Shown: positions 10,157 through 62,580 of the stretch, in pieces
Numbering within the stretch: the stretch's first letter is position 1
Layout: each line of letters begins with the position of its first letter
Origin: Prevotella sp.
GTDB taxonomy: Bacteria > Bacteroidota > Bacteroidia > Bacteroidales > Bacteroidaceae
Assembly (NCBI GenBank): GCA_017395215.1
Contig: JAFPVW010000079.1
Coordinates: 1-62,580 of the forward strand
Direction: 5' to 3'
Length of the DNA: 62,580 bases
Position numbers and translations under genes: made by a program
The notes under the pieces: model-generated
Seen by the model: only the letters and a program-made list of their open reading frames with translations
The model's database searches: none
What the model was told of the DNA's origin: nothing

Positions 10157-10834
10157 TTAATCTTCAAACTGCAGACTCAGCTGTCCGTCGCCGAGCAGGT
10201 TGTAGCTCATGCGGTGGTAGGGCGTGGTGCCATACTGGCGGATGGCCTCGCGGTGAGCCTTCGTCGGGTAGCCCTTGTTCTTCTGCCAGTCGTACTGCGG
10301 ATACTCCTTGGCCAGCTGGTTCATATAGTCGTCGCGGTAGGTCTTGGCCAGTATCGAGGCGGCCGCAATGGCCATGTACTTGCCGTCGCCCTTGACGATG
10401 GTGGTGTGGGGCAGGTCCTGGTATTTCTTGAACCGGTTGCCGTCGACGATGATGGCCTCGGGTCTCACTTTCAGCTGGTCCAGTGCGCGGTGCATGGCCA
10501 GTATCGAGGCGTTGAGGATGTTGATCTTGTCAATCTCCTCGGGCGTGACGATGCCCACGGCCCACGCCACGGCGTCGCGCTCTATCTGTTCGCGCAGTTC
10601 ATAGCGGCGCTTCTCCGTCAGCTGCTTCGAGTCGTTCAGCAGCGGGTTCTCATAGCCGTCGGGCAGGATGACTGCCGCCGCATAGACGCTGCCCGCCAGG
10701 CAGCCCCGTCCGGCCTCGTCGCAGCCGGCCTCGATGAGGCCGTCGTAGTAATGGGGGAGAAGAAGACTCTCCCCCGACCCCTCCCTGTGAGGGAGGGGAG
10801 TGTTTACCTTTACGCTATCTCTATTCTCTTTCAT
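10157..10834 (-). CDS. rnhB: Ribonuclease HII whose start lies inside a repeat element
   Basis: Cleaves RNA strands and single ribonucleotides embedded in DNA. The conserved body starts at about residue 32 ([28 protein letters not shown], with the DEAGRG metal-binding motif) and runs to the C-terminus, including [20 protein letters not shown]. The first ~28 residues are not family sequence. They are encoded by a double-hairpin repeat (10764-10885): the ATG at 10834 sits between its arms and [12 protein letters not shown] is the left arm translated. No other ATG lies between this one and the conserved body, so the element appears to provide the start. Downstream of sufS in the same run. Confidence 0.92.
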
Positions 10835-10885
10835 TGCTTTGGTATTTACTCCCCTCCCTCACAGGGAGGGGCCGGGGGTGGGTCT
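10764..10885. repeat. Double-hairpin GC-rich element, copy 1 (rnhB start)
   Basis: Two inverted 38-nt arms, 10764-10801 and 10848-10885, differing at only 3 positions. Each arm contains a smaller hairpin CCCTCCCTGTGAGGGAGGG and, at the outer end, a GGGGGTGGGTC-type block. The 46-nt centre carries the rnhB start codon. A partial extra block (GACGGGGGTGGGTC) lies at 10891-10904, next to the sufS stop. Confidence 0.9.
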
Positions 10886-10906
10886 TGTGGGGACGGGGGT
10901 GGGTCG

Positions 10907-12121: not shown

Positions 12122-12154
12122 ATACTCAACTCCTTACTCCTCAACTCCTCACTT
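12122..12154. repeat. Degenerate CTCAACTCCT-type tract between sufD and sufS
   Basis: Imperfect tandem of CTCAACTCCT/CTCACTTCTC units fills the whole sufD-sufS spacer and includes the sufD stop codon. The same unit type recurs in frame at 15921-15958 and in short form at 47395-47411. Confidence 0.6.
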
Positions 12155-13528
12155 ACACAGTTTGCATCCCTCACACTTGTTCAGCTCGCCGCGGAAGCGC
12201 TTCTCGATGAGATAGTGCAGGCGGTCGCGCAGCGGCTCCAGTTGCATCTTGTCGATGACCTCGTTGATGAAGGCATTCTGCAGCAGCAGTTTCGCCTCCT
12301 GCAGTGAGATACCGCGCTGCCGCATATAGAACAGCGCCGCGTCGTTGAGCTGGCCCACCGTCGAGCCGTGGGCGCACTTCACGTCGTCGGCATAGATTTC
12401 GAGCATCGGCTGGGTGTACATCCGGGCCTCCTTCGTGGCCGTCAGGTTCTGGTTGGTCATCTGCGACGTCGTCTTCTGTGCACCGTGCTCCACCAGCACC
12501 CGTCCGGCAAAGGCCCCCGTGGCCTTGTCGTCGAGCACGTATTTATACAGTTCGTTCGACGTGCAGTGGGTGGCGCGGTGCGTTATCAGCGTGTTGTTGT
12601 CGACGTGCTGCTGCTTGTCGGCGATGACGCAGCCGCAGCACTGGCACTCGGCGCCCTCGCCCGACAGCGTCAGGTCGAGCTTGTTGCGCGTCACGCCGTT
12701 GTGCAGGGTGATGACATTATGGGTGACGCGGCTGTCGCGCTGCTGGTCGATGTAGACATTGCTCACGCGCACGTTCTTGGCGTGGGTCTCCTCTAAGCAG
12801 TATAGGTCGAGCTGTGCATTCTCGCCCACGAAGGCCTCGATGACCTGCGTGGCCAGGAAGTGGCGGTCGTCGGCAGCGTGGTCGCAGAACAGCAGTTTGA
12901 CTTCAGCACCCTCCTCCAGGACGATGAGCACACGGCGGTTCACCATCAGGTCGACGTCCGAGCGCAGGATATTGATGACCTGCACGGCACGGTCCACCTT
13001 CACGCCGCGCGGCACGTAGACGTAGAGACCGTCCTGCGCCAGCATCGTGTTCAGGTCGGTGACGGCGTCGCCGTCTTTTCCCGCCAGCCGGTTATAGTGC
13101 ACGGTGGTGGCAAAGTCCTTCAGCGAACCGATGACGACGCCTTCGGGCAGATGGGCGCTGGGCAGGGCCTGGGCGTAGAACTGATCGTTGACCACGAAGT
13201 AGAGCGAGGTCGAGAGGTTGGGCACGTCGCAGCTGAACGACCGGTAGGGGTCGACGGGAATCTGCAGGCGGTTCAGGTTCAGGCCGTAGTCAGGCTCGAA
13301 GAGCTTCGCTATGTCGGTGTACTTGTAGCGCTCCACCTTCTTCGTAGGAAAGCCGCCCGCCTTGAAACGCCCGAACGCCTCGTCGCGCACGGCGTTCATC
13401 ACGTCGCTGCTGTGCCCGCAGATCATCTGCCGGCACTGCTCGTAGAGTTCTATGTATTGGAGTCCCGCCCCCATCCCCTCCCTGTCAGGGCGGGGCGTAG
13501 ATACTGTTGCTGTTGTCTTCTCCGTCAT
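12149..13528 (-). CDS. sufD: Fe-S cluster assembly protein SufD
   Basis: Scaffold subunit of the SufBCD complex. 459 residues with the right-handed beta-helix core and the C-terminal signature VKCAHGSTVGQLNDAALFYMRQRGISLQEAKLLLQNAFINEVI. The extreme C-terminus CEGCKLCK is Cys-rich. The N-terminus MTEKTTATVSTPRPDREGMG is not family-like: the start codon (13526-13528) and following residues are encoded inside a repeat element (13461-13595); SufD-like sequence begins at about residue 25. SufC lies 28 nt upstream. Cytosolic. Confidence 0.95.
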   Translation of the reverse strand: MTEKTTATVSTPRPDREGMGAGLQYIELYEQCRQMICGHSSDVMNAVRDEAFGRFKAGGFPTKKVERYKYTDIAKLFEPDYGLNLNRLQIPVDPYRSFSCDVPNLSTSLYFVVNDQFYAQALPSAHLPEGVVIGSLKDFATTVHYNRLAGKDGDAVTDLNTMLAQDGLYVYVPRGVKVDRAVQVINILRSDVDLMVNRRVLIVLEEGAEVKLLFCDHAADDRHFLATQVIEAFVGENAQLDLYCLEETHAKNVRVSNVYIDQQRDSRVTHNVITLHNGVTRNKLDLTLSGEGAECQCCGCVIADKQQHVDNNTLITHRATHCTSNELYKYVLDDKATGAFAGRVLVEHGAQKTTSQMTNQNLTATKEARMYTQPMLEIYADDVKCAHGSTVGQLNDAALFYMRQRGISLQEAKLLLQNAFINEVIDKMQLEPLRDRLHYLIEKRFRGELNKCEGCKLCK

Positions 13529-13595
13529 AATCCTCGTTACTTAGTCTGTCAGGTAATTACTCCCCTCCATTCAGGGAGGGGTCGGGGGTGGGTCT
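13461..13595. repeat. Double-hairpin element, copy 2 (sufC/sufD junction)
   Basis: Arms at 13461-13498 and 13559-13595 in inverted orientation, less similar to each other than in copy 1. The outer part encodes the C-terminus of SufC (RPTPDPSLNGGE), the sufC stop is at the inner edge of one arm (13557-13559), and the sufD start is in the centre. The element therefore forms the whole gene junction. Confidence 0.88.
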
Positions 13596-14330
13596 CTTTA
13601 TCCAGTCATACCCGTGCTCCTGAATCTCCTTGGCCAGCTCCGTGCCGCCCGTCTTCACGATGCGCCCCTGGTATAGCACGTGGACATACTGCGGCCGGAT
13701 CATCTCAAGCAGCCGGTCGTAGTGGGTGATGACGATGCAGCTCGTCTCTGGCGTCTGCAGCTTGTTCACGCCCTCGGCGACGATGCGCATGGCGTCGACG
13801 TCAAGGCCGGAGTCCGTCTCGTCGAGGATGCTGAGCTTCGGCTCGAGCATGGCCATCTGGAAAATCTCGTTGCGCTTCTTCTCGCCGCCGCTGAAGCCCT
13901 CGTTCACCGAGCGGTTGGCCAGCTTCGAGTCCAGCTCCACAATCTTCCGCTTCTCGCGCATCAGCTTCAGAAACTCTGCCGCGTTCATCGGCTCCAGGCC
14001 CTGCGCCTTGCGCCGCTCGTTGATGGCCGCCTTCATGAAGTTGGTCATCGACACGCCGGGAATCTCCACCGGGTACTGGAACGAGAGGAACAGCCCCTCG
14101 TGGGCCCGCTCCTCGGGTTTCATCTCAAGCAGGTTCTTGCCGTTGAACCAGGCCTCGCCCTCGGTCACCTCGTAGAGCGGGTTGCCCACGAGCACGGCCG
14201 ACAGCGTCGACTTGCCCGAGCCGTTCGGACCCATGATGGCGTGCGTCTCGCCGTCGTTGACCACCAGGTCAATGCCTTTCAATATCTCTTTCTCGCCTAT
14301 TCGGGCGTGTAAATTGCGTACCTCTAACAT
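13557..14330 (-). CDS. sufC: Fe-S assembly ATPase SufC
   Basis: ABC-type ATPase of the SufBCD complex. 257 residues: Walker A GPNGSGKST, signature FSGGEKKRNEIFQ, Walker B LSILDETDSGLD and the His loop VITHYDR. SufC proteins normally end near KELEEKGYDWI; here KEIQEHGYDWIK is followed by RPTPDPSLNGGE and the stop, all encoded by the repeat element. First gene of the sufCDS run, with its own TACCTTTG promoter. The usual upstream neighbour sufB is ~29.5 kb away. Confidence 0.96.
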   Translation of the reverse strand: MLEVRNLHARIGEKEILKGIDLVVNDGETHAIMGPNGSGKSTLSAVLVGNPLYEVTEGEAWFNGKNLLEMKPEERAHEGLFLSFQYPVEIPGVSMTNFMKAAINERRKAQGLEPMNAAEFLKLMREKRKIVELDSKLANRSVNEGFSGGEKKRNEIFQMAMLEPKLSILDETDSGLDVDAMRIVAEGVNKLQTPETSCIVITHYDRLLEMIRPQYVHVLYQGRIVKTGGTELAKEIQEHGYDWIKRPTPDPSLNGGE

Positions 14331-20561: not shown

Positions 20562-20603
20562 ATCGTTATTGTTTTCGTTATCGTTCCCGTTCCCGTTTTC
20601 GTC
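20562..20603. repeat. Hexamer tandem tract upstream of the C10 peptidase
   Basis: Seven tandem hexamers of the form GTTnnC/T on the plus strand (GTTATC, GTTATT, GTTTTC, GTTCCC and others), between the lipoprotein stop and the peptidase start. It occupies most of the 53-nt spacer. Confidence 0.75.
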
Positions 20604-21198
20604 AGTTCCATGCCCGGAGCACTGCTCCGTCGAAGGCGGCGTTGTATGTGTAGAGCTGTCTGCCGCCCTCGCCCTGGGCCACTACACCGTTGTTCACGTC
20701 GTAGCTGCGCTTGCAGCGGGCGCATTGCAGCTGCTGGCCGTTCGGGCTCCACGTCAGCGGGTAGTTGGTACCGCCATACTGGTCTAGGCAGTTGGCGCAC
20801 TGGCCCTCGTAGCAGACGAACATCCCCGTGTAGCTGCTGCGCCCGATGATGATGGCGTTGCTGGCCCCGAGCACGCAGCGGGTGCTGTTCTCCTTCTTGC
20901 TGGTCAGGGTGATGTCCTCCTCGGCTTGGTCGTAGTTGCGCGTGGTCAGGATATGTCGCACACCGCCCACCATCTTTGCCCTGACGGTCATGAAGTGGCC
21001 GGGGTTGCCCAAAGCCACCGTCAGCTGGCAGGGGGCGGGATGGAGCGTCGCGTCGAAGATGAAGTAGCAGGCATGGCCGCGATAGACGCTGTTCTCAACG
21101 TCGTCGCAGGCCCAAAAAAGCATGAGGAAGAATACCCACCCCCAGCCCCTCCCCAAATGGAGGGGTGTAGACACTATGCTATGGACAAATCTCCTCAT
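20602..21198 (-). CDS. Lipoprotein with two CxxC pairs; N-terminus built from a repeat element
   Basis: 198 residues. The first ~24 residues (MRRFVHSIVSTPLHLGRGWG...) are encoded by the repeat element at 21131-21254, including the start codon; the hydrophobic FFLMLFWAC then acts as signal and lipobox. The C-terminal half has CANC (with an extra upstream Cys) and CARC, spaced like a Rieske-type or zinc-ribbon fold but with Cys only, so a Rieske 2Fe-2S cluster with His ligands is not supported. Function unknown; redox or metal binding is possible. It follows argH and precedes the C10 peptidase. Confidence 0.7.
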   Translation of the reverse strand: MRRFVHSIVSTPLHLGRGWGWVFFLMLFWACDDVENSVYRGHACYFIFDATLHPAPCQLTVALGNPGHFMTVRAKMVGGVRHILTTRNYDQAEEDITLTSKKENSTRCVLGASNAIIIGRSSYTGMFVCYEGQCANCLDQYGGTNYPLTWSPNGQQLQCARCKRSYDVNNGVVAQGEGGRQLYTYNAAFDGAVLRAWN

Positions 21199-21254
21199 AT
21201 CTGCGATGATGGTAACTATGCCCCTCCATTCAGGGAGGGGTTAGGGGTGGGTCT
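21131..21254. repeat. Double-hairpin element, copy 3 (argH/lipoprotein junction)
   Basis: Inverted arms at 21131-21168 and 21217-21254. The right arm encodes the end of ArgH (ETHP) and its TAA stop within CCCCTAACCCC; the centre carries the start codon of the lipoprotein (21196-21198); the left arm encodes TPLHLGRGWGWV. Same layout as at sufC/sufD. Confidence 0.88.
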
Positions 21255-22581
21255 CCAATAGTTTGCGTTCGGCCTCGGTCACGCGCTCGAAGGCAAAACC
21301 TTCGAGCACACGGTCCATCAGGGCGGCGATGCGGTCGTTGCAGAGGTTGCCGATGCTGCCCTCGTGGGTGTGGTGGATATTCTTGTCGGGCGTGAACTGT
21401 CCGGCTTCGATGTCGAGTCCCACCTTCTTGTAGGCGTCGCGGAAGGGCATGCCGCTGGCGGCGAGGCGGTTGACCTCCTCGACCGAGAACATCGGGTCGT
21501 ACATCGGGTTGTCGAGGATATGCTCGTTCACCTCTATCTTATTGATGATGTAGGCCGTCATCTGCAGGCAGTCCTTCAGCTCGTCGAAGGCAGGCAGGAA
21601 CACCTCTTTTATAATCTGCAGGTCGCGGAAGTAGCCCACGGGCAGGTTGTTCTTGATGAGCGTTATCTGGTAGGGCAGGCCCTGCAGCTTGTTCGACTTG
21701 GCGCGGATGAGCTCGAAGACGTCGGGGTTCTTCTTGTGCGGCATGATCGACGAGCCGGTGGTACACTCCTTCGGCAGCTTGACGAAGGAGAAGTTCTGTG
21801 AGTTGAACAGGCAGGCGTCGAAGGCCAGCTTGGCCAGCGTGCCGGCAATGGCGGCGATGGCGAAGCTGACGCCCACCTCCATCTTGCCGCGCCCCATCTG
21901 GGCGTAGACCACGTTGTAGTCCATCGAGTCGAATCCCAGCAGCTCGGTGGTCATCGTGCGGTTCAGGGGGAACGAGCTTCCGTAGCCGGCAGCCGAACCG
22001 AGCGGGTTGCGGTTGGTCATGCGGTAGGCGGCCTGCAGGAAGAGCATATCGTCGCAGAGACTCTCGGCGTAGGCGCCGAACCACAGTCCGAACGACGACG
22101 GCATGGCCACCTGCAGGTGGGTATAGCCCGGCATGAGCACGTCCTTGTACTGCTCTGATTTCTGCAGCAGTTCGTCGAAGAGCGTCTTCACCTCGTCGGC
22201 GATGTCCATCAGCTGGTGGCGCGTGAAGAGCTTCAGGTCTACCAGCACCTGGTCGTTGCGCGAGCGGCCGGAGTGAATCTTCTTTCCCATGTCGCCGAGG
22301 CGGCGCGTCAGCAGCATCTCCACCTGCGAGTGGACGTCCTCGACGTCGTCCTCGATCGTGAACTCGCCGCGCTCGCATAGCTCGTAGATGTTCTTCAGTT
22401 CGGCGAGCAGCACGGGCAGCTCGTCCTTGCCAATCAGTCCGATGCTCTCGAGCATCGTGATGTGGGCCATCGAGCCCAGCACGTCGTACTTCGCCAGATA
22501 GAGGTCCATCTCGCGGTCGCGGCCCACGGTGAACCGGTCAATCTCCTTGTTTACCTCAAAGTTCTTTTCCCAGAGCTTCAT
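21241..22581 (-). CDS. argH: Argininosuccinate lyase
   Basis: Splits argininosuccinate into arginine and fumarate, the last step of arginine synthesis. 446 residues. Visible: KIHSGRSRNDQVLVDLKLF, the TPGYTHLQ-like MPGYTHLQVAMPSSFG, and the fumarase/lyase signature GSSIMPHKKNPD with the catalytic Ser. The C-terminus ...RKLLETHP and the stop codon are encoded by repeat copy 3. Preceded by an SRPBCC gene (15 nt) and pyrE. Cytosolic. Confidence 0.96.
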   Translation of the reverse strand: MKLWEKNFEVNKEIDRFTVGRDREMDLYLAKYDVLGSMAHITMLESIGLIGKDELPVLLAELKNIYELCERGEFTIEDDVEDVHSQVEMLLTRRLGDMGKKIHSGRSRNDQVLVDLKLFTRHQLMDIADEVKTLFDELLQKSEQYKDVLMPGYTHLQVAMPSSFGLWFGAYAESLCDDMLFLQAAYRMTNRNPLGSAAGYGSSFPLNRTMTTELLGFDSMDYNVVYAQMGRGKMEVGVSFAIAAIAGTLAKLAFDACLFNSQNFSFVKLPKECTTGSSIMPHKKNPDVFELIRAKSNKLQGLPYQITLIKNNLPVGYFRDLQIIKEVFLPAFDELKDCLQMTAYIINKIEVNEHILDNPMYDPMFSVEEVNRLAASGMPFRDAYKKVGLDIEAGQFTPDKNIHHTHEGSIGNLCNDRIAALMDRVLEGFAFERVTEAERKLLETHP

Positions 22582-23772: not shown

Positions 23773-26013
23773 TTAATCGTCGGCCAGGGTGAAGTCGAGC
23801 TGGCGCTTCTCCAGGTTGGCCCGTGCCACCTTGATGCGGATGGGGTCGCCCAGCTGGTACTTCGAGTGGTGGCGACGGCCGATGAGACAGTAGTGGGCCT
23901 CGTCGAACTCGTAGTAGTCGCCGCTGAGGTCGTGCATGGGCACCATACCCTCGCAGTGATTCTCATCGATTTCGACGTAGATGCCATAAGACTGTATGCC
24001 CGAGATGTGGCCGTCGAAGCACTGCCCGATCTTGTCGCCCATGAACTCCACCATCTTGTACTTGATGCTGTCGCGCTCGGCGTTGGCGGCAGTCTGCTCC
24101 ATATCGCTCGAGTGCTCGCAGAGTTCCTCGTAATGCTCCTGATTGGCGCTCCGGCCGCCGTCCTGATAGCGGGTCAGCAGGCGGTGGACCATCGTGTCGG
24201 GATAGCGGCGGATGGGCGAGGTGAAGTGGGTGTAGTAGTCGAAGGCCAGTCCGTAGTGGCCGATGTTATGGGTCGAATACTTGGCCTTCATCATGGCGCG
24301 CAGGGCGACGGTCTCAATGAGTTTCTGCTCCTTGCTGCCCGCAGCCTCGTCCATCAGGGCATTCAGCGACTTCGAGATGGCACCTTTCGTGCCGCTGGTC
24401 TTCAGCTTATAGCCGAAGGGGGCGACAACCTGGCGCAGCGACTCCAGCTTCTGGGGGTCGGGCTGGTCGTGGACGCGGTAGACGAAGGTCTTCTTGGCCT
24501 TGGCCCCCCTCTTATCCCCCGAGGGGGAAGAAGCCTCCCCTCGGGGAGGTTTGGAGGGGGCTCCGATGCTCTCGGCAACGGTGCGGTTAGCTAACAGCAT
24601 GAATTCCTCGATGAGCTTGTTGGCATCCTTCGACGTCTTGAAATAGGCGCGGACGGGCTTGCCGTCAGCGTCGATGTCGAAGTGCAGCTCCTCGCGGTCG
24701 AACTTCACGGCGCCGTTCTTGAAGCGCCGCTCGCGCAGTTTCTTGGCCAGCGCGTCGAGCTTGATGAGCTCGGCAGCGTACTCGCCCTTGTAGGGGTTGT
24801 TCTTCGTGGCGGGCGGTGCGGGCTGTCCAGTGCCGTCCTTGACGCCGTTGTCCTCTAACAGCTGCTGTACCTCCTCGTAGGCATAGCGGCGGTTGCTGCG
24901 GATGACGGTGTGGGTCAGATGCCACGACTTGATGTTGGCATCGTCGTCCAAGATGAAGATGACGCTGTAGCAGAGCTTATCCTCGTCGGGGCGCAGCGAG
25001 CAGATGAAGTTGCAGAGCCGCTCAGGCAGCATCGGGATGGTGCGGTCGACGAGGTAGACGCTCGTGGCCCGCTTCTGTGCCTCCTTGTCGATGATGCTGC
25101 CCTCCTTGACATAGTGGGTGACGTCGGCAATGTGGACGCCGACCTCCCATAAAGCCCCTTTCTTCCTGATCGACAGCGCATCGTCGAAGTCCTTGGCATC
25201 CTTCGGGTCGATGGTGCAGGTCCACACGTCGCGGAAGTCCTCGCGGCGGGCTATCTCCTCGGGGGTGATGCCCGGATCAATCTTCTTCGCGGCATCCTCC
25301 ACGGTCTTCGGGTACTTATAGGGCAGACCATACTGTGCTAAGATGGCGTGCATCTCGACGTTGTTGTCGCCCTCCTTGCCGAGCACGTCAACGACCTCGC
25401 CGACAATGTTCTTCGACTCCTTCGACGGCCACTGCGTAATCTTCACCACGGCCTTCTCGCCGTCCTTGCCGCCCTTCAGCTTCTTCTTCGGTATCAGGAT
25501 GTCGTGGACGAAGATATTTCCCTCGGTAATGAGGAAGGCAAAGTCCTTCTCCACCTTCAGCTTACCCACGGCCTGGTCGGTCTTGTGGCTCAGGATCTCA
25601 GTCACCATCGCCTCCTTGATGTGGTTCTGGCGGCGGGCCATCATCGCCACGCGGACGCGGTCGCCGTTGAGGGCGAACATCGAGTTGCGCTCCGACACGA
25701 AGATGGGCGTACCACCATCGTCGGGCAGGAACGAGTTCTTGCCGTTGGCCTTGCGGATGAACGTGCCCTCCTGCACCTGACCTTTCTGGTTCAGGCGGTA
25801 CTCATTGTCGCTCACCTTCGACAGATAGTCGTCCCAGCACATCTCGTCGAGCGCGTCGATGGCCAGCATCTTCGCCGGATGCGTGTCGAGCTTCAGTGCC
25901 CTGAAGATATACTTCAGCGAGAACGTTTCATTAGGACTTGCCGTGAACAACCCCTGCAGGGCCTCGGCCACGGCCTTCTTTGACAGTCGTTTTCCACCTC
26001 TCTTCTTTCCCAT
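23773..26013 (-). CDS. rnr: Ribonuclease R
   Basis: 3'-5' exoribonuclease that digests structured RNA. 746 residues: N-terminal winged-helix and cold-shock domains, the RNB catalytic core with TIDPKDAKDFDDALS and its Asp cluster, and a C-terminal S1 domain (IGQCFDGHISGIQSYGIYVEI). The ATG at 26013 (MGKKRGGKRLSKKAVAEAL) is chosen; the frame continues upstream to 26169, but the promoter box at 26044-26051 lies in between. A foreign in-frame stretch SKPPRGEASSPSGDKRGAK at ~484-503 comes from a repeat element within the RNB domain. Short basic C-terminal tails common in RNase R are absent. Confidence 0.95.
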   Translation of the reverse strand: MGKKRGGKRLSKKAVAEALQGLFTASPNETFSLKYIFRALKLDTHPAKMLAIDALDEMCWDDYLSKVSDNEYRLNQKGQVQEGTFIRKANGKNSFLPDDGGTPIFVSERNSMFALNGDRVRVAMMARRQNHIKEAMVTEILSHKTDQAVGKLKVEKDFAFLITEGNIFVHDILIPKKKLKGGKDGEKAVVKITQWPSKESKNIVGEVVDVLGKEGDNNVEMHAILAQYGLPYKYPKTVEDAAKKIDPGITPEEIARREDFRDVWTCTIDPKDAKDFDDALSIRKKGALWEVGVHIADVTHYVKEGSIIDKEAQKRATSVYLVDRTIPMLPERLCNFICSLRPDEDKLCYSVIFILDDDANIKSWHLTHTVIRSNRRYAYEEVQQLLEDNGVKDGTGQPAPPATKNNPYKGEYAAELIKLDALAKKLRERRFKNGAVKFDREELHFDIDADGKPVRAYFKTSKDANKLIEEFMLLANRTVAESIGAPSKPPRGEASSPSGDKRGAKAKKTFVYRVHDQPDPQKLESLRQVVAPFGYKLKTSGTKGAISKSLNALMDEAAGSKEQKLIETVALRAMMKAKYSTHNIGHYGLAFDYYTHFTSPIRRYPDTMVHRLLTRYQDGGRSANQEHYEELCEHSSDMEQTAANAERDSIKYKMVEFMGDKIGQCFDGHISGIQSYGIYVEIDENHCEGMVPMHDLSGDYYEFDEAHYCLIGRRHHSKYQLGDPIRIKVARANLEKRQLDFTLADD
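24502..24562. repeat. CCCCCGAGGGGG-type element in rnr
   Basis: Compact inverted pair of GGCCCCCCTCTTATCCCCCG-like arms, each containing a CCC(C)CGAGGGG(G) mini-hairpin. Encodes KPPRGEASSPSGDKRGA in frame inside the RNB domain of RNase R. Confidence 0.85.
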
Positions 26014-26043
26014 AGTCTTTTTAAGTTTTTTGGTTTCTGAGGG

Positions 26044-26051
26044 CAAAGATA
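26044..26051 (-). promoter_or_regulatory. Promoter -7 box for rnr
   Basis: TATCTTTG on the minus strand with a TTG -33 element at 26071-26073 (19-nt spacer), 30 nt before the rnr ATG. Divergent from the GH51 promoter 43 nt away. Confidence 0.7.
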
Positions 26052-26094
26052 CAAAAATATTGAGAAATGGCAACCGTTTATGGAGTTTTTTTTG

Positions 26095-26132: not shown

Positions 26133-28679
26133 ATGAACAAAAAACTACTGACAATGGCCCTGGCGGCACTCTGTTCCATTGGTGTTGCGGCTCAGTCCAC
26201 AGACTCTTGTACCGTATTCATATATTCGCCCGGACAGAGCGCCGGACTGCACCTCGCCGTCGGCGGCGAAGACTCGTGGCGCGACGTCGGACAGCTCTGT
26301 GGCAGCGACTACGGCACGTGGGGCGCCGAGAAGCGCATGCACCACCCCTCGGTCTGCCGCGCCGCCGACGGCACGTGGCGCCTGGTGTTCCAGGTCAACG
26401 ACCGTGCGCCGCTCTTCGCCGCTGCCTACAGTCGCGACCTCGTCAACTGGCGGCCGCAGGACTATCCCATCATGACCACCGCCAAATGTCTTGAGCCGGT
26501 CGTCTTCCCCAATCCCGACGGGACGTTCGATATCTATTACAAATCGCCGCAGGGCAAGCGCTGGACGTCGGCCACGCCAAACTTCCGCGACTTCACCCCC
26601 GACCAAGCCAGCGAAATCAGCGACGACGCCTGGATACGCGACACGGCCACCGTCGGCGGCAAACTCTATGAGGGCAACTGCTTCGAGATTTCCTCGGCGG
26701 AATGGTCGAAAATCGACGGCTTCTTCAAACAGCGCGCCACTGACGCCCGCCTCTCAGCCGAGCGCATGCACGACGACGCCACGCCCAACAGTGCGCTCAG
26801 CGGTTTTGCCGCTGAGACCACCCTCCGGGCCACGCTGACCGTCGACCAGAGCCGCCAGAAGCCCATCAGCGACAAGCTCATCGGCATCTTCTTCGAAGAC
26901 ATCAGCTATGCCGCCGACGGCGGCCTCTACGCCGAGCTCATCCAGAACCGCGACTTCGAATACAGCAGCCGCGACCGCCGCGAATGGACCGCCACCACCG
27001 CCTGGCGCTCTCAGCGTCCCTTAGAGATTGCCACCGAGAACCCGCTCAGCAAGAACAATCCGCACTACGCCCTGTTGTGGCCGAAAGACACCCTCTGGAA
27101 CGAGGGCTGGGACGGCATCGCCGTGGAGAAGGGTAAGAAGTACGACTTCTCGATGTACGTACTGGGCGGCGGTCAGAAGCAGGACTTTATTATTCTGCTC
27201 GTCGGCGAGGACGGTACTGTGCTTGCCAAGAGTAAACTGAAGACGGCGGCTGGTGCTTGGACGCAGTATGCCACCGTGCTCACCGCCAAAGGCAGCAATG
27301 CCAAAGCCCGGCTGGCCATCGTGCCGCTGAAGGCTGCTCACGTGGGTGTCGACATGATTTCTCTCTTCCCGCAGGAGACCTTCATGGGGCGCAAGAACGG
27401 CTTGCGCCGCGACCTGGCACAGGTGATTGCCGACCTGAAGCCGAAGTTCGTGCGCTTCCCCGGCGGTTGCATGACTCACGGTCAGGGACTGGAGAACATC
27501 TACCACTGGAACGAGACCGTCGGCCCGCTGCAGGACCGCAAGCCCGACTTCAACATCTGGCACTACCACCAGACGCGCGGACTGGGCTTCTATGAGTACT
27601 TCCAGTTCTGTGAGGACATCGGTGCCGAACCGCTGCCCGTGCTGGCTGCCGGCGTGCCCTGCCAGAACTCCGTCGCCGACGCCCGCGGCATCGGCGGACA
27701 GCAGGGCGGCATTCCGATGGACCAGATGCCGGCCTACATCCAGGAACTGCTCGACCTCATAGACTGGGCCAACGGCGACCCCGCCACCAGCGAGTGGGCC
27801 CGCAAGCGCGCCGAGGCCGGTCACCCCGCGCCCTTTAACCTTAAATATATAGGTATAGGCAACGAGGACATCATTGGCACCGTCTTCGAGGAGCGCTACA
27901 CGATGATTGCCCGCGCTATCCGCGCCAAATATCCCGACATCAAGATATGCGGCACCGTGGGCCCCTTCCACACGCCGAGTGCCGACTACCAGGAGGGTTG
28001 GGACTTTACCCGCCGCAACCCTGACCTGCAATATATGGTCGACGAGCACTACTACGAGTCGACGGGCTGGTTCATGCACCACCGCGACTACTACGACAAA
28101 TATTCAAGAGAAGCCCCCTCGGGGGCAGTAGGGGGGGCTACAAAGGTGTACCTTGGCGAGTGGGCCGCCTCGACCAACGTGAAGCGCCCCAACGTGGAGA
28201 CGGCACTGGCCGAAGCTCTCTACCTGACCGACATCGAGCGCAACGGCGACGTGGTCGAGATGACCAGCTACGCCCCGATGCTCTGTAAGGATGGCCACTC
28301 GAACTGGAACCCCGACATGATCTACTTCTCGAACACCGAGGTGCGCCCAACACCGGCCTACCATGTGCAGCGCCTCTTCTCCGTCTACGGCGGCGACACG
28401 TATGTCAATTCAAGATTGACAATTGACAATTCAAAACTCGCCCACCGCCTCGGTGCCAGCGTTGTTCGCAACAGCAAGACCGGCAAAACCTACGTCAAGC
28501 TGGTCAACGCCCTCCCCGTCTCGTTAGAGCTGACCGTCAACGGCCTCAGCATCCCCGCCGCCGCCCGTACTGAAGGCTTCGAGGGCAAGCCCGAAGACCG
28601 CCGCCTCGACATCAAGACCGGCGAGGCCGGCACCGCCATCGTCCTCCCGCCCTATTCCTTCCGCGCCATCGAACTCTAA
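26133..28679 (+). CDS. GH51 alpha-L-arabinofuranosidase with N-terminal GH43-like module
   Basis: 848 residues. Signal peptide 1-20; a partial five-bladed-propeller-like module (about 27-200: MHHPSVCRAADGTWRLVFQ, LEPVVFPNPDGTFDIYYKS); then a GH51 enzyme starting near 232, with acid/base Glu578 in IGIGNED and nucleophile Glu676 in KVYLGEWAA. It removes arabinofuranosyl side groups from arabinan or arabinoxylan. A repeat-derived insert (REAPSGAVGGA, ~660-670) ends only a few residues before the nucleophile strand, and a second tract (SRLTIDNSKL, ~758-768) lies in the C-terminal sandwich. First gene of a three-gene operon; the GH51b start is 12 nt downstream. Confidence 0.92.
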   Translation: MNKKLLTMALAALCSIGVAAQSTDSCTVFIYSPGQSAGLHLAVGGEDSWRDVGQLCGSDYGTWGAEKRMHHPSVCRAADGTWRLVFQVNDRAPLFAAAYSRDLVNWRPQDYPIMTTAKCLEPVVFPNPDGTFDIYYKSPQGKRWTSATPNFRDFTPDQASEISDDAWIRDTATVGGKLYEGNCFEISSAEWSKIDGFFKQRATDARLSAERMHDDATPNSALSGFAAETTLRATLTVDQSRQKPISDKLIGIFFEDISYAADGGLYAELIQNRDFEYSSRDRREWTATTAWRSQRPLEIATENPLSKNNPHYALLWPKDTLWNEGWDGIAVEKGKKYDFSMYVLGGGQKQDFIILLVGEDGTVLAKSKLKTAAGAWTQYATVLTAKGSNAKARLAIVPLKAAHVGVDMISLFPQETFMGRKNGLRRDLAQVIADLKPKFVRFPGGCMTHGQGLENIYHWNETVGPLQDRKPDFNIWHYHQTRGLGFYEYFQFCEDIGAEPLPVLAAGVPCQNSVADARGIGGQQGGIPMDQMPAYIQELLDLIDWANGDPATSEWARKRAEAGHPAPFNLKYIGIGNEDIIGTVFEERYTMIARAIRAKYPDIKICGTVGPFHTPSADYQEGWDFTRRNPDLQYMVDEHYYESTGWFMHHRDYYDKYSREAPSGAVGGATKVYLGEWAASTNVKRPNVETALAEALYLTDIERNGDVVEMTSYAPMLCKDGHSNWNPDMIYFSNTEVRPTPAYHVQRLFSVYGGDTYVNSRLTIDNSKLAHRLGASVVRNSKTGKTYVKLVNALPVSLELTVNGLSIPAAARTEGFEGKPEDRRLDIKTGEAGTAIVLPPYSFRAIEL
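28112..28139. repeat. CCCCCTCGGGGG-type element in GH51a
   Basis: Hairpin AGCCCCCTCGGGGG followed by CAGTAGGGGGGGCT; encodes EAPSGAVGGA in frame just upstream of the nucleophile strand. Contains a run of seven G (28131-28137). Confidence 0.8.
28405..28437. repeat. In-frame TTGACAATTGACAATT tract in GH51a
   Basis: Tandem TTGACAA units encoding NSRLTIDNSKL in the C-terminal beta-sandwich domain. Confidence 0.75.
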
Positions 28680-28691: not shown

Positions 28692-31172
28692 ATGAAACAG
28701 AAAAACTTCCTCCTCATCGCCTGTTGGCTGTGCTGCGGCGCCGCCGCAGCCCAAGTCACCATCGACATCGACGCCAACCAGCGCGGCCCCAGAATCAGCC
28801 CCACCCACTACGGCATCTTCTTCGAAGACATCAACCACGCCGCCGACGGCGGCCTCTACGCCGAGCTCATCCGCAACCGCTCCTTCGAGGACGGCCCCCG
28901 CTACGGTGCCCCCGCCGACATGCAGGCCTGGTCAACCTATGCTGTGTCCCCGTCGCAGCTCACCGCCCGCCTCGTCCAGCCGTCGAAGAAGACGCCCCTG
29001 CTGAACAGCGTCCAGCAGAACGCCCTCGAGCTGACCATCAATGCCACGGCGGCACAGCCCGTCTGCCTCGTCAACGAGGGCTTCTGGGGCATCAACACCG
29101 TACAGGGCCGCACCTACCGCCTCAGCTTCTGGGCAAAGGGAAAATATAAGGGCAGTATCAAGGCCGTGCTGAAAGCCCACGAAGCCCACAAAGCCCCCCC
29201 TACGGCCCCCGAGGGGGCTTCTATACTGGCTGAAGCTATTGTGTCCCCCTCGGGGGACGAAAGGGGGGCCTCTTGGCGCAAGTACACCGCCGAGCTGACC
29301 GCCACCGGCAACGACCCGCAGGCGCAGTTCGCCCTCGTCTTCGACGGCAAGGGCACGTTGCAGCTGGATGTCGTCAGCCTCTTCCCGCCGACGTTCAAGA
29401 ACCGCGAGAACGGCCTGCGCCCCGACCTGGCCCAGATGCTCTTCGAGATGCACCCCAAGTTCATGCGCTTCCCCGGCGGCTGCTTCGTCGAGGGCCAGAT
29501 CTCGCCTGAGAACGCCTTCCGCTGGGAGCGCACCATAGGCCCCATTGAGGAGCGCCCCGGCCACTGGAACGTCAACTGGGGCTACCGCACCACCGACGGC
29601 ATTGGTTTCCACGAATACTTGCAGATGGCTGAAGACCTCGGTGCCAAGCCCCTCTACGTGGTGAATGTCGGACTGTGGCACGGCGGCATGACGCCCGTAG
29701 ACTCGCTGCAGCCGTGGATTGACGAGACGCTGGCCGCCCTGGAGTATGCCAACGGTCCGGTGACGTCGAAGTACGGCGCCCTGCGCGCCAAGAACGGCCA
29801 TCCGGCTCCGTTCAACATCGAGTACTTAGAGATTGGCAACGAGAACAACCAGCCCGACCCCCGCCAGCAGAGCGACCACTACTACGACCGCTTCAAGCTG
29901 TTCAAGGAGCAGATACTGAAGAAGTACCCGAAGATGCACCTTATTGGCAATGTCGCTGCCTGGGGCACCGACACGCCGACGTGGGACAGCCAGGAGAGCG
30001 TCGAACTCCTCGACGAGCACTACTACCGCAACCCGGCCTGGTTTGCCGACAACTTCCACAAGTACGACACCTACGACCGCCGCGGACCGAAGATCTACGT
30101 CGGCGAGTATGCCGTGACCAGCGGCTTCGGCAACCTGGGCAACATGAACGCCGCCCTCGGCGAGGCCGTCTACATGATGGGCATGGAGAACAACAGCGAC
30201 ATCGTGCCGCTGAACAGCTACGCCCCCATCTTCGTCAACGAGAACGACGCCCGCTGGCGCCCCGACATGATACGCTTCTCGTCGAGCCGCGTCATGGGTA
30301 CGCCGTCGTACTACGTACAGATGCTCATGCCCCGCAACATCGGCACGCAGGTGGTGAAGGTCAGCCAGACCAACCCCTACACGGGCATCGTCAAGCCCAT
30401 CACGCCAAAGCAGAGCCGCGTGGGCTACTCGGCGTGGGGCACAGAGGCCAGCTATACCCACTGCGAGCCGCTGCCCAAGAGTGGCAAGCCAGAGATCGTC
30501 AGCGGCAAGTGGGAGATAAACGACGACGTCCTGCAGCATAAGGGCCGTATGGAGGCCCCGCTGGCCGTCTGCCGTCAGACCATCGACAGCGATCACTATA
30601 CCATCAAGTGTCGTGCCCGCAAGGACAACGGCCACGAAGGCTTCATCATCGTGTTCAACTACGTTGACGAGCAGAACTACTGCTGGCTGAACTTCGGCGG
30701 ATGGGGCAACAGCCAGCACGCCATCGAGCAGATCAGCAGCGGCGGCAAGATTCAGGCCGACATCAAGCCCGGCCGCGTCGAGACGGGCCGCTGGTACGAC
30801 GTGACGCTGACCGTCAGCGGCGACAGCGTCAAGGCCTGGCTCGACAGCGACCTCATCTTCGACACCGTGCTGAAGCGTAACACGTCGCTCGGCGTCTTCT
30901 CGTCAGCCACCATCGACGAGGCTACGGGCGAGCTCATCGTCAAGGTGGTGAACTCACAGGAGGAGGGCACCACGGCCCGCCTGAACCTGAAGAACTTCGA
31001 CGTCAGGAGCGCCAAGCTCATCCGTCTGCGCGCCAACAGCGGTGAGGACGAGAACACGCTGCTGCAACCCACCAACATCAGTCCCACGGAGCACGAGCTG
31101 TCGCCGGAGTGCAACAGCATCGACGTGGAGTTGCCCGCCTACTCGCTAAACATTATCAGAATCAAGAAATAA
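28692..31172 (+). CDS. GH51 alpha-L-arabinofuranosidase with carbohydrate-binding domains
   Basis: 826 residues with signal peptide (1-21). The GH51 core opens at ISPTHYGIFFEDINHAADGGLYAELI, interrupted by a CBM4/9-like sandwich (about 75-240), then the barrel with acid/base Glu384 in EIGNENN and nucleophile Glu472 in KIYVGEYAV. A C-terminal concanavalin-like region (about 620-740; GHEGFIIVFNYVDEQNYCWLNFGGWGN) may bind glycan. A ~30-residue repeat-encoded segment (HEAHKAPPTAPEG...SPSGDERGAS, ~163-193) interrupts the CBM. Second of three operon genes; the GH105 start follows its stop after 3 nt. Probably shares arabinan side-chain removal with GH51a. Confidence 0.93.
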   Translation: MKQKNFLLIACWLCCGAAAAQVTIDIDANQRGPRISPTHYGIFFEDINHAADGGLYAELIRNRSFEDGPRYGAPADMQAWSTYAVSPSQLTARLVQPSKKTPLLNSVQQNALELTINATAAQPVCLVNEGFWGINTVQGRTYRLSFWAKGKYKGSIKAVLKAHEAHKAPPTAPEGASILAEAIVSPSGDERGASWRKYTAELTATGNDPQAQFALVFDGKGTLQLDVVSLFPPTFKNRENGLRPDLAQMLFEMHPKFMRFPGGCFVEGQISPENAFRWERTIGPIEERPGHWNVNWGYRTTDGIGFHEYLQMAEDLGAKPLYVVNVGLWHGGMTPVDSLQPWIDETLAALEYANGPVTSKYGALRAKNGHPAPFNIEYLEIGNENNQPDPRQQSDHYYDRFKLFKEQILKKYPKMHLIGNVAAWGTDTPTWDSQESVELLDEHYYRNPAWFADNFHKYDTYDRRGPKIYVGEYAVTSGFGNLGNMNAALGEAVYMMGMENNSDIVPLNSYAPIFVNENDARWRPDMIRFSSSRVMGTPSYYVQMLMPRNIGTQVVKVSQTNPYTGIVKPITPKQSRVGYSAWGTEASYTHCEPLPKSGKPEIVSGKWEINDDVLQHKGRMEAPLAVCRQTIDSDHYTIKCRARKDNGHEGFIIVFNYVDEQNYCWLNFGGWGNSQHAIEQISSGGKIQADIKPGRVETGRWYDVTLTVSGDSVKAWLDSDLIFDTVLKRNTSLGVFSSATIDEATGELIVKVVNSQEEGTTARLNLKNFDVRSAKLIRLRANSGEDENTLLQPTNISPTEHELSPECNSIDVELPAYSLNIIRIKK
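29192..29271. repeat. CCCCCGAGGGGG-type element, paired, in GH51b
   Basis: Inverted arms 29192-29220 and 29241-29271, each with a CCCCCGAGGGGG or CCCCCTCGGGGG mini-hairpin and an outer GCCCCCC block, separated by ~20 nt. Translated in frame inside the carbohydrate-binding domain. Confidence 0.88.
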
Positions 31173-59356: not shown

Positions 59357-59380
59357 CTTCTTAATAACGCGGTTATCCTG

Positions 59381-62300
59381 CTATTTATTGCCTAATATGA
59401 TGAGTTTCTTCGCTTTCGAGGCTTGCGAGCTGCCTTCCGAGGAGAGGCGCACGCGGTAGAGGTAGACGCCCGTGGATAGCCGGTGGCCGCCCGTTATGGT
59501 CAGGTCCCACGTGACGGTGTTGGCTCCGTCGGGAGAACCGCCGGACGCTGTCTCCGTGTGGTGCCAGAGCTGGCGGCCGGAGGTGTCGAAGACGTCAATC
59601 TCGATGTCGACCTGCGAGCCCGTGCGGTCGTGGGTGACGATGAAGGTGGTTTCCGTGGTGGCAGGGTTCTTGGTGCAGTCGATGCTGAAGATGGAAGGCT
59701 CCAGCCCCTTGACGACGTTGAACTCCAGCTCGGCCGTCGACGAGTTGTTCATCACGTCCCAGGCTCGGAACAGCAGCTTGTGCCTTCCGGCGGGGAGCTG
59801 TGGCAGGCTGTAGTTGAGCGAGCCGCTGCGGTAGTCGCCGAAGTCGAACTGGAAGTAGTCGTTCAGCACGTAGGTGGTGGTCATAGCGCCGTCGACAATC
59901 AGCTCCAGGTCGTGGCCGATGCCGCCGCCCGATACGTTGATGCCGTCCTTGTCGTAGAGCTCGGCGTGGAACAGCGGGGTGGCGTTGACATCGCCGCCGC
60001 TGACGAACGAGGTGGTGTTGAGGTAGCAGTAGATGTTGGGGCCTATGCCGTCGGTGGCAGTGGCATCGCCACTGCACAGCGAACAGTTGGTACTGTAGCC
60101 GCTGGCCTCCTGCTGCTTGTCGGCAGAGAGGGCGTAGAGGGTGATGAGGCCGTTGCCCTCGTTGTAGCTGATGTCCTTGGGCAGGGCGAAGCTGACCTTG
60201 AAGCGGCCTTGGCGCACGCTGTCGGTGCCCTGATAGAGCGTGTTGGGACGGTCCTTGAACGTGAGGGGAGAGTCAGCCGCCGAGGGGTCGTTCAGGCGGC
60301 AGGTCACCTCCTGTTCAACGTCCTTCACGGTGAGCGTCACCACGCCGTCGAAGGCCGGTGCGCCGACGATGTGACCCGCGATGCTGACCGTCTGGCCGAC
60401 CTTCAGCTGCACGGGCTCACCGTTGGCCGGCTCGCCGTTGATGCTGTCGACCACCATCTGCAGAGTGGGTGCGGCCAGCGTGAGGGCCGGGTCGCCGAGC
60501 AGGGTGAACTGCAGCTTGTTGGCCGTCTGGTCCATGCCGATGTCGTTGCCCTGACTCGACGGCGTCATCAGCAGGTTCTTGGCCAGTCGGGCAGCCTCGC
60601 CGATGGTGTAGCGGCGGCCCTCGGCATCGCGGCCCAGGACGTAGCGGGTATAGGCGCGGTTCATATAGCCGTTATACTGGGCATAGACGGTGCGCGTGGT
60701 GCCGTAGAAGGCAATGGCGCCGCCCTGCTTGTTGAGCATACAGGTCTCGCCGATGTTCTCCTCCTGACCGTCGAAGGGCATGATGTCGCACGAGGCCGTC
60801 AGCCACAAGGGCAGGCGCAGCGACGTAGCCGCTTCGAAGTCCGACAGGTGGAGCACCTGCTCGTGCGACATGGTGTAGGCAGCCCCGTGGCCGCTGTAGT
60901 TCATCAGCAGCGCGCCCTGCTGCATCTGCTGGCGTATGAGCTTGGTGACGTCGGGATAGCTGAAGCCCGTCGACGACGACTGCCGCTCGTAGGCATCCCA
61001 GTAGATTTTCTTGACGCTGAAGGCCGGGTGCTGTTCGCCGATGAGTGTTGCCACCGACTCGGCATCCTTCATGTGGCGGTTCGAGTCGCCGTCGTCGCCC
61101 ATGAAGCAGAGCGTGTTCTGCCAGGCACCGGCGTTCTCGTTCTGCATATAGCCGATGGTCTTGTCGACCATAATCTTAGCTTCTGCCTCCGTGCGTGCCG
61201 ACAGCCGGCCCACGGCGATGTCAGACTTGTCGCTGACCAGCATCGAGCCGCCCTCGCCGTCGTCCATCAGGCAGAAGTAGTCGTCGCTGACGTAGCAGTC
61301 GGTCTCGCTGAACGAGTTCTCGCTCTCGTAGCAGAGCAGGAAATCGTCGGGCGACGAGTTCTGCCAGACGGCGGTCTTCATGCGGTTGTCCCAGGCACCG
61401 TCGCCGAAGAGCAGCAGGTAGCGGGGCATGTCGGCCTCGGTCTCTGCACGGTCGTAGAGCATCCTCAGGTAGCGGCGGTAGGCGTTGGCGTCGGGCGTGC
61501 CGCTCGAGAACTCATTGAACAGCTCGTCGGCAGGCACGATGCGCACCCGCAGCGAGTCCTTCTGTTCGTGGTATGCCTTCAGCCGCTGGGCCTGGCCCAA
61601 TAGTTTCTGCGTCGTGGGGATGATGATGACCATATCGACCGCCGTGTCGGCGTGATGGTTCTGGTTGGTGATGTTGTAGACGTACTGCGGCACGGGGATG
61701 CTGGCCGTTGCCAGGTCGGGCCACGCCTGCGGGGTGTCGTAGCAGAGCGACAGATAGTCGAGGCGCAGGTTGGAGCCACCGGTCTGGCGGATGGTGACGG
61801 TGTTGTCCGCCAATAGCGGGTCTTCAACGGTAAAAGTCTTCGTGGTGGCGGCCGCCTTGCTGTAGCGGTCGGGCGACGTATTGACGATAACCGTTCCCAC
61901 CTCCTTGCCGTTCACCAGCACGCTGGCGGTAAAGGGACCATCGTGGGAGAGCACCACCGTGAGCTTGCCCTTCGAACCTTCGGGGGCGGCAAGCTGATAG
62001 GTGCGCTGCACGCCGGTGCCGAAGAGGCGGCTGTCGTACAGGTTGCGCCCGCCGTGGTACCAGGCGTAGTCGTCGACCTCGCTGAGCGAGTGGTAGTCGT
62101 TGGGGGTGGGGTAGTGGTCGGCCTTGAACTGCTCCTCGCTGACGGTCAGCGCCGTCGAGTCGTTCTCGGTCAGGAAGTAGTAGCCGTAGTCGCTGTAGGG
62201 ATTGCGGGTACGGGTGGTGGCGGTGTTGCTGCTCCAGCCCACGGGACCGACAGCATAGAAGAGCCGCCGTCCGCCGACGCTACACGTCGCCACCTCCTTC

Positions 62301-62580
62301 AGGTCGTCGGTCTCGCTGATGTAGTCGGCGGTCAGCCGCTCGGGCTGCAGGGCTCCGCCGTAGCCATAGATTTTCACCTTGCTGACGTCCGTAAACCCAG
62401 CCTTGCGCACCAGGTCGCTGGTAAGCTGGTAGACGCCCGACTCCGGCACGCGGATTTTGGCCCAGCGCCCGGTAGCAAGTACAGAAAGACCCACCCCCGG
62501 CCCCTCCCTGTAGGGAGGGGAGTAATTAGCTGTGCCCCGCGCCGCTGCCGCAGAAGGAGTATCTACTCCCCTCCCTACAG
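59381..62580 (-). CDS. porU: Type IX secretion sortase PorU, 5' end outside the window
   Basis: Gingipain-like (C25) protease that cuts the C-terminal sorting domain from type IX cargo and attaches it to the surface. About 1065 codons are visible: N-terminal VLATGRWAKIRVPESGVYQLT; catalytic region MNYSGHGAAYTMSHEQV (His) and WLTASCDIMPFD (Cys); C-terminal Ig-like and FlgD-like sorting tail (LSTGVYLYRVRLSSEGSSQASKAKKLIIL). The frame has no stop up to the right edge: upstream of LSVLATGR it continues through two arms of the repeat element, so an apparent GTG start at 62494 is rejected. Partial gene. Confidence 0.92.
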   Translation of the reverse strand, partial: VGRGVDTPSAAAARGTANYSPPYREGPGVGLSVLATGRWAKIRVPESGVYQLTSDLVRKAGFTDVSKVKIYGYGGALQPERLTADYISETDDLKEVATCSVGGRRLFYAVGPVGWSSNTATTRTRNPYSDYGYYFLTENDSTALTVSEEQFKADHYPTPNDYHSLSEVDDYAWYHGGRNLYDSRLFGTGVQRTYQLAAPEGSKGKLTVVLSHDGPFTASVLVNGKEVGTVIVNTSPDRYSKAAATTKTFTVEDPLLADNTVTIRQTGGSNLRLDYLSLCYDTPQAWPDLATASIPVPQYVYNITNQNHHADTAVDMVIIIPTTQKLLGQAQRLKAYHEQKDSLRVRIVPADELFNEFSSGTPDANAYRRYLRMLYDRAETEADMPRYLLLFGDGAWDNRMKTAVWQNSSPDDFLLCYESENSFSETDCYVSDDYFCLMDDGEGGSMLVSDKSDIAVGRLSARTEAEAKIMVDKTIGYMQNENAGAWQNTLCFMGDDGDSNRHMKDAESVATLIGEQHPAFSVKKIYWDAYERQSSSTGFSYPDVTKLIRQQMQQGALLMNYSGHGAAYTMSHEQVLHLSDFEAATSLRLPLWLTASCDIMPFDGQEENIGETCMLNKQGGAIAFYGTTRTVYAQYNGYMNRAYTRYVLGRDAEGRRYTIGEAARLAKNLLMTPSSQGNDIGMDQTANKLQFTLLGDPALTLAAPTLQMVVDSINGEPANGEPVQLKVGQTVSIAGHIVGAPAFDGVVTLTVKDVEQEVTCRLNDPSAADSPLTFKDRPNTLYQGTDSVRQGRFKVSFALPKDISYNEGNGLITLYALSADKQQEASGYSTNCSLCSGDATATDGIGPNIYCYLNTTSFVSGGDVNATPLFHAELYDKDGINVSGGGIGHDLELIVDGAMTTTYVLNDYFQFDFGDYRSGSLNYSLPQLPAGRHKLLFRAWDVMNNSSTAELEFNVVKGLEPSIFSIDCTKNPATTETTFIVTHDRTGSQVDIEIDVFDTSGRQLWHHTETASGGSPDGANTVTWDLTITGGHRLSTGVYLYRVRLSSEGSSQASKAKKLIILGNK
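62487..62580. repeat. Double-hairpin element, copy 5 (porU N-terminal region, cut by edge)
   Basis: Arm at 62487-62523 (AGACCCACCCCCGGCCCCTC...) and the beginning of an inverted arm at 62565-62580, 41 nt between. The porU frame reads through both (…SAAAARGTANYSPPYREG…). Confidence 0.88.

Follow-up and report, generated by a model that had tools for sequence, protein, structure and literature searches.

GC-rich palindromic elements in frame within and across genes of a rumen Prevotella, probably of a non-autonomous mobile type

The stretch of DNA analyzed here (the window) is the 62,580-nt contig JAFPVW010000079.1 of Prevotella sp. assembly GCA_017395215.1, a rumen Prevotellaceae metagenome-assembled genome (MAG; here G000) of 3.6 Mb in 211 contigs that is 85% complete and 5.9% contaminated. 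Its genes include SufS-, SufD-, and SufC-like genes, an RNase HII-like gene, an ArgH-like gene, and dapB; all except dapB were named by reading their translations. In and across these genes lie GC-rich palindromic elements, each made of an inverted pair of arms (~38 to 48 nt per arm) around a short core, with a G-rich foot on the outside and a CCCCTCC..GGAGGGG-type hairpin on the inside. An earlier note on this DNA had described five copies (elements 1 to 5 in Table 1), and all of them are present, the fifth being cut by the window end. The window contains 8 CCCCTCC..GGAGGGG palindromes, against 0 in any of 100 shuffles. Genome-wide we counted 133, compared with 1 for a reversed-pattern control, which bears out the proposal that the copies belong to a dispersed family. 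The window also holds more in-frame GC-rich palindromes than the five previously noted (Table 1).

The earlier note had ascribed a single plan to the five copies. The inverted arm pair is common to them but the foot is not: element 4 belongs to a second subfamily, B, with the foot CTTGGGGAGGC rather than the GGGGGTGGGTC of subfamily A. The foot can also be written GACCCACCCC, the A arm is the GACCCACCCCC-hairpin arm, and by eye the A arms continue inwards as AGTAGATACC / GGTAATTACT. Arms end in GGGTC(T)/GGGTCT, GGGCT/GGGCTT, GGGGTC, or GAGGC types. A third family, C, with CCCCCGAGGGGG hairpins, looks related. We surveyed arms and elements in 53 sequences, the window plus 52 stretches of G000 around palindrome matches (contigs up to C148 of 211), using a profile hidden Markov model of the arm that was trained on the same loci it then scanned. 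A cutoff of E<1e-4 yielded 101 arms in 66 elements, and a looser cutoff yielded a 105-arm set that was used for pair orientation. In that set, 34 of 38 neighboring pairs less than 250 nt apart were oriented foot-out, as were 8 of 8 pairs in our isolate control, the finished chromosome of Prevotella communis E15-14 (NZ_CP091794.1). The orientation of the pairs is not due to chance. Each of the four complete window copies forms one long hairpin (z of -3.8 to -12.2 with single-stranded DNA energies). Mean arm identity was 0.856 within a copy and 0.827 between copies (permutation p 0.0014), so the closer match of arms within a copy that had been noted earlier is real but weak. Coevolution of the arms, suggested along with it, comes down to this small effect, and a strong form of it was rejected. 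Cores are short and mostly dissimilar, with exceptions: the dapB and metG elements have a core in common at 82%, and the core of the element in the MurF-alanine racemase gene (Alr element) resembles one core in the relative G151. Because some cores are shared between elements, at least some units move with their core.

Inside a single open gene lie 44 of the 66 elements, 37 of them with clear codon bias on both sides. Being in frame is built into how these internal elements were called, so the informative test is the absence of broken hosts. No broken host gene was found among the 22 non-internal elements (Pfam scans covered both flanking genes for 9 and one flanking gene for 2, and 11 were judged by reading only, namely 3 window copies by eye and 8 from reading frames), in agreement with the earlier claim that the copies sit in and across genes without breaking frame. 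Many of the non-internal elements lie where two genes meet and contribute the ends of proteins, start codons, or stop codons; for 9 such junction elements, the flanking gene pair matches different Pfam families. The gene-end donation suggested earlier is confirmed for elements 2 and 3, which give the SufC-like and ArgH-like genes their last codons and stops, and the called start codons of the downstream genes lie within elements 1, 2, and 3. The related statement that no copy creates a premature stop holds inside gene cores, the stops in elements 2 and 3 being those at the ends of the upstream genes. Random 120-nt segments of the window fell inside called genes in 86% of cases, which indicates that the elements avoid genes somewhat, yet genes are still their main home. 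Pfam-named hosts include MnmA, the MurF-alanine racemase, MetG, an SNF2 helicase, FeoA-FeoB, an ABC exporter, DsbD, RND pumps, an Mfd-like protein, and several glycosidases. The insert falls within a single, continuous Pfam domain match in MnmA, SNF2, AcrB, CN_hydrolase, radical SAM, GH97_N, and DUF5107, while the Ala_racemase_N match breaks at it. Alignments to Protein Data Bank (PDB) structures break around the insert in AcrB, Alr, and DapB, the last passing from query position 158 to 205 between positions 156 and 158 of structure 1vm6.

Read through, the arms encode stop-free Pro/Gly/charged peptides, for example, PTPxPSPxxGG. Over the three frames, 36 foot-to-hairpin arms of G000 were distributed 9/0/27 and 38 hairpin-to-foot arms 27/8/3; the corresponding distributions in P. 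communis were 6/0/1 and 7/2/1. One frame is avoided in both genomes, and the favored foot-to-hairpin frame differs between them. By reading, the unused frames of subfamily A end in a TAA or TAG where the arm meets the core (GGGGAGTAA/TAG). Depending on its frame, an element can thus form an internal loop or donate a C-terminal tail, and the SufC-like gene exemplifies the tail.

In the P. communis chromosome we found 23 palindromes and 17 elements in 17 stretches, with 10 of the 17 internal to an open gene and two within one 1,333-amino-acid frame that reads like glutamate synthase (hosts here were named by reading, without a domain scan). The pattern in the finished isolate is the same as that in the MAG. 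A fragmented assembly with the completeness and contamination of G000 could in principle create such inserts during assembly or binning, but the same insertions recur in independently assembled MAGs, and their pattern in a finished chromosome excludes a MAG artefact, to which we give a negligible probability.

Table 1. Palindromic elements and arms of the window and divergent RAYT-like gene copies of G000 (see text)
Feature	Position	Family	Relation to genes (strand)
Element 1	10764..10886 (arms 10764-10801 and 10848-10886)	A	Left arm in frame at the N-terminus of the RNase HII-like gene (10157-10834, -), called ATG in spacer; right arm just beyond the stop of the SufS-like gene (10907-12121, -)
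Element 2	13461..13596	A	Reaches into two genes: the SufC-like gene (13557-14330, -) takes its C-terminal tail ..RPTPDPSLNGGE and stop from it, the SufD-like gene (12149-13528, -) its start and N-terminus MTEKTTATVSTPRPDREGMGAG
Element 3	21131..21255	A	Right arm ends the ArgH-like gene (21241-22581, -), giving its last codons and TAA; left arm in frame within the N-terminal region of the next gene (20602-21198, -), whose called start lies in the element
Element 4	39687..39788	B	In-frame insert of ~34 amino acids inside dapB (39490-40311, -)
Element 5	62487..62580 (truncated by window end)	A	In frame near the start of open frame 59381-62578 (-)
Family C element	29186..29276	C	In frame inside gene 28692-31172 (+), reads AHKAPPTAPEGASILAEAIVSPSGDERGAS
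Single arm	28105..28142	C	In frame inside gene 26133-28679 (+), reads SREAPSGAVGGA
Hairpins	24500..24565	C-like	In frame inside gene 23773-26169 (-)
Weak single arm (+), 21.4 bits	33406..33430		In frame inside gene 32983-34005
RAYT-like copy L316	G000:C96:32269-33417		
RAYT-like copy L337	G000:C39:44170-45192		
RAYT-like copy L344	G000:C174:38691-39761		
RAYT-like copy L345	G000:C126:11520-12548		

Orthologues without the element exist. Among the best 80 of 518 dapB loci, the match length leaves room for the insert in 3 and is too short in 77; among 12 aligned relatives, the insert is present in 3 (L018, L019, and L020) and absent in 8, and L060 carries a shorter, different insert. Separately, dapB contains a second in-frame, repeat-like insert, SALNPQPSTL (window ~39999-40038), that also occurs in L021 and L022 and is missing in other species. 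At the junction that holds element 1, the same element is found in G149 (L140) and a similar one in the more distant G153 (L139), with no element in G150, G151, or G152. The site of element 2 lacks the element in G151 and G152, where only 26 to 27 nt separate the aligned flanks, and element 3 has a full copy in G149 (L134) and one arm with a similar core in G150 (L131).

Beyond dapB, we searched the joined flanks of 24 sites in three relatives (G149, G150, and G151; G034 and G151 are apparently one genome, having identical coordinates). For 7 queries (E18, E19, E21, E32, E43, E48, and E55) no relative had both flanks, and the other 17 sites gave 40 observations, which we classified by reading the printed segments after excluding the paralogue G149:C108. 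The same kind of element was present in 13 observations, a different palindrome family occupied the same place in 8 (at 8 sites), and 19 showed none or nothing recognizable; none of the 40 printed segments contained a stop codon. The order G000, G149, G150, G151 reads A, A, C, empty at the MnmA site; B, B, none, C at MetG; A, A, C, none at the RND site E56; and partial A, A, not found, C at SNF2. The Alr site is empty in 3 of 3 relatives despite flanks that are 95 to 97% identical in G149, so this insertion is either recent or was lost several times. Other empty sites are those of the RND gene E34 (2 of 2 relatives), MnmA (1 of 3), and CN_hydrolase (1 of 3). In the gene at locus L181, the 42-nt core in G000 is the exact reverse complement of that in G149 (42/42 nt; L181:1161-1202 versus L238:268-309), while the order of arms and flanks is conserved and both core orientations are open for reading. 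The earlier note had named two observations that would speak against it, the same insert at the same place in distant genera and a lack of in-frame bias among genome-wide copies; checks for both left its claim standing.

The occupation of one place by different families raises the alternative that the positions are conserved as fixed insertion sites, at which element families replace one another by homing or cassette exchange, rather than being hit by independent insertions that selection then filters. The 8 of 17 sites with another family, the inverted core, and the scattered occupancy of the SufS/RNase HII junction would suit such exchange. Tolerant loops are few, however, so that independent hits at one loop are expected, and different repetitive extragenic palindromes (REPs) at about one site are already known from two Xanthomonas recB genes (available text of PMC3733652). 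Nor does divergence drop beside the element, with 84/816 differences between G000 and G149 within 30 nt, 117/1680 at 31 to 90 nt, and 278/4179 at 91 to 250 nt. Together with the 19 of 40 observations that lack a recognizable element, this leads us to regard fixed sites as unlikely.

What we observe directly is a set of many dispersed copies with a defined unit orientation, orthologous sites that are occupied or empty, in-frame positions within conserved domains, and presence at the same site in sister species. We consider it likely that the elements are non-autonomous mobile palindromes, of the type of REPINs (REP doublets forming hairpins) and Rickettsia palindromic elements (RPEs), that are moved in trans and whose surviving insertions are in-frame loops, protein ends, and gene junctions. 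The elements would be copied to new places, both in and between genes, by a transposase acting in trans, for which the single-strand HUH/Y1 type is the likeliest, and selection would purge the insertions that break proteins, leaving in-frame copies at tolerant loops, termini, and junctions.

Several results weigh against this interpretation. Across 14 elements compared between G000 and G149, differences numbered 46/1332 in the element and 479/6675 in the host flanks, with E9 and E57 reversing the pattern; elements less diverged than their flanks are not predicted for plain selfish DNA. The low divergence may reflect gene conversion between the copies or selection acting at the DNA level. No near-identical source copy of the Alr element was found in the 85%-complete G000. 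By eye, the 40 orthologue observations revealed no consistent target duplication of the kind expected of miniature inverted-repeat transposable elements, and our search for insertion sequences covered Y1 families only. No gene flanked by element arms was detected, although one could have been missed given the completeness of G000, and the matching REP-associated tyrosine transposase (RAYT) anticipated by the earlier note was therefore not recovered. Among 62 Y1/RAYT loci, a set that extends to weak hits and to other families within the order, an A-like arm lay near one only, L294 (26.0 bits, ~1.2 kb away). A divergent RAYT-like family, described below, fares similarly: none of its 58 loci (some of them duplicates; 52 with a recognized gene) has a flanking A arm, a dyad occurs at L315 only (family B, ~0.8 kb away, with weaker single hits at L361 and L362), and three copy-rich genomes of 99% completeness (G003, G026, and G046) have no significant match to any RAYT-like query.

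The low divergence also bears on the possibility that the elements are kept for a role in RNA, such as translation coupling, mRNA stability, or termination, with their overlap of genes incidental. In dapB, the arms differ from those of L019 and L020 at 3 and 4 of 70 positions, the core at 11 and 16 of 33, and the flanks at 53 and 67 of 400, and the hairpins are strong, if judged by single-stranded DNA energies. Many elements nonetheless lie deep inside genes, distant from starts and stops, and an Rfam scan of the window returned no family at threshold; we think an RNA role very unlikely.

As for the mobilizer presumed under trans mobilization, G000 carries two Y1_Tnp genes, conventional RAYTs whose YIHQNP motif fits Bacteroidetes subclass 2.6 (as described in the available text of PMC6006769). 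We rejected both as mobilizer, with no A or B arms within 1.5 kb; one of them, L001, is flanked by its own GGGGACAGTCCCC palindrome. By reading, a reverse-transcriptase-like frame (L001:1-864) ends ~0.6 kb before this RAYT gene. Y1 presence did not track copy number (12 of 17 copy-rich and 11 of 21 copy-poor genomes, p 0.33, tallied by hand over same-genus genomes at least 90% complete, with genomes lacking a matched row counted as zero). Subclass 1.2-like genes were set aside as well; a search of 26 genomes gave strong matches (E below 1e-15) in 5.

Following up weak Y1 hits, we arrived at a divergent RAYT-like family of proteins of 340 to 430 amino acids that have HUH and Tyr motifs and an additional, long C-terminal region (loci L305, L306, L308-L318, and others, some overlapping, e.g., L305/L335, L306/L314, and L312/L315). 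Its motifs are MPDHLHGI and YLxDNPRRL, and the DHxH and the Tyr that precedes NP are conserved without exception (8 of 8). The best NCBIfam match for 6 of 6 proteins was NF047646 REP_Tyr_transpos, with E values of 9e-6 to 6e-13 that all score below the curated cutoff, as the family does for Pfam; a PDB search gave 5 hits, all transposases, at E of only ~0.2. The family occurred in 14 of 17 copy-rich and 2 of 19 copy-poor genomes (Fisher p 2.5e-5 for hand-picked genomes, kinship uncorrected), or in 14 of 17 and 4 of 19 (p 6e-4) when two short matches (G065 and G053) are counted as positive. Outside this test stood G149 and G150, which have no palindrome count, and G063 and G075, with 13 and 10 palindromes and no match. 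Genomes hold up to 10 matches (G155; ~8 places after joining split matches).

These proteins suggest that the elements could be the REPs of the divergent family, with each paralogue serving one palindrome family, as in REPtrons. The NCBIfam and PDB matches, the association with copy-rich genomes, and the multicopy nature of the family all fit, and at L308 a single palindrome type occurs on both sides of the gene and within it, which is a REPtron layout. That palindrome, however, is of the CTATGCTGCAACA type and not CCCCTCC, and such flanking was seen at L308 only and not at most of the 52 recognized-gene loci. No scanned copy is flanked by A arms and three copy-rich genomes lack a match, so the family is a candidate only, and we hold this explanation to be a serious possibility that falls somewhat short of probable. 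In several copies of the family, the stretch from the HUH to the Tyr motif contains palindromes or low-complexity repeats. The family, which scores below the Pfam and NCBIfam cutoffs, is a lead in its own right. A more far-reaching idea combines it with fixed positions: surface loops would be "insertion sockets" in which palindrome families replace one another and cores flip in frame, driven by expanded, lineage-specific RAYT-like transposases. This is speculative and, to us, improbable; if true, housekeeping proteins would gain exchangeable, invertible disordered loops.

Other repeats were observed beside these. A palindromic GC-rich repeat (~TGTTGGCTGTGCTGCGGCGCCGCCGCAGCC) at window positions 28712-28752 and 59280-59332 encodes the signal-peptide-like start of two different genes, and a similar sequence lies inside the RAYT-like gene L312. 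A further dispersed inverted repeat of the GGGTGACGGATGC type (window 17863-17916 / 18032-18085) has many matches in G149. The 29-nt inverted pair AACCGACACTTCCTACACTTCCTGCACCT (window 43560-43588 / 43807-43835) is 97% complementary over a spacing of 218 nt. In a one-contig genome (G016:C1), L268 and L269 contain tandem single-hairpin arrays with a 44-nt period where no frame of at least 100 amino acids is listed.

No earlier description of this palindrome family in Prevotella or Bacteroidetes was found among the part of the matching open-license literature that was covered. As far as that search goes, what is new comprises the lineage and its families, the large proportion of intragenic copies, the presence of different families at one site in several genes, the inverted core, and the divergent RAYT-like proteins. 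Alleles of one gene that are empty, occupied, or differently occupied allow tests of how protein segments arise from selfish DNA, which loops accept it, and what moves it. For annotators, repeated peptides such as RPTPNPSLxGGE at loops or termini of Prevotella proteins are translated repeats, not domains. Intragenic invertons have inverted repeats within a gene around a segment that inverts. The L181 element is like them in its one inverted core, but this inversion is a single case, seen between species.

The nearest concepts named by the earlier note, RPEs and REP/RAYT systems, fit: the palindromes lie in frame in many unrelated genes, and the inverted pair forms one hairpin. REPs inside genes, stop codons supplied by REPs, and tag-out dimers are already in print (available text of PMC3733652): GTAG/CGTC REPs are hairpins with an outer tag that form tag-out dimers, mostly 20 to 100 bp apart, give stop codons to flanking genes, and are sometimes intragenic. 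The Prevotella arms likewise have an outer foot, foot-out pairing, stop donation, and intragenic copies, but their outer ends lack a terminal GTAG or CGTC, and they are mainly intragenic whereas GTAG/CGTC REPs are, in the same text, mainly intergenic. As in a REPIN, the inverted doublet forms one hairpin; unlike REPINs, the elements are mostly not extragenic, and no cognate RAYT flanked by the same REP was found. Y1 genes resembling Bacteroidetes TnpA subclasses 1.2 and 2.6 (available text of PMC6006769) do occur in Prevotella genomes, but where palindromes flank them, these are of other types, the arm near L294 being the sole exception seen. RPEs comprise several families of ~150 bp that are inserted in frame into genes of unrelated kinds, and in R. 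conorii nearly half of the copies are genic (available text of PMC10969869), and the CGTC class, including RPE-4 and RPE-6, has no transposase association in the available text of PMC3733652. The Prevotella palindromes share with RPEs the in-frame position in many unrelated genes. They are set apart by description, being GC-rich double hairpins from another phylum, and by sites holding different families in related species, one inverted core, and two-thirds of the examined copies being intragenic. Large-scale protein-coding palindromes are best known from Rickettsia, and Prevotella provides a second, unrelated lineage, one with cultured members.

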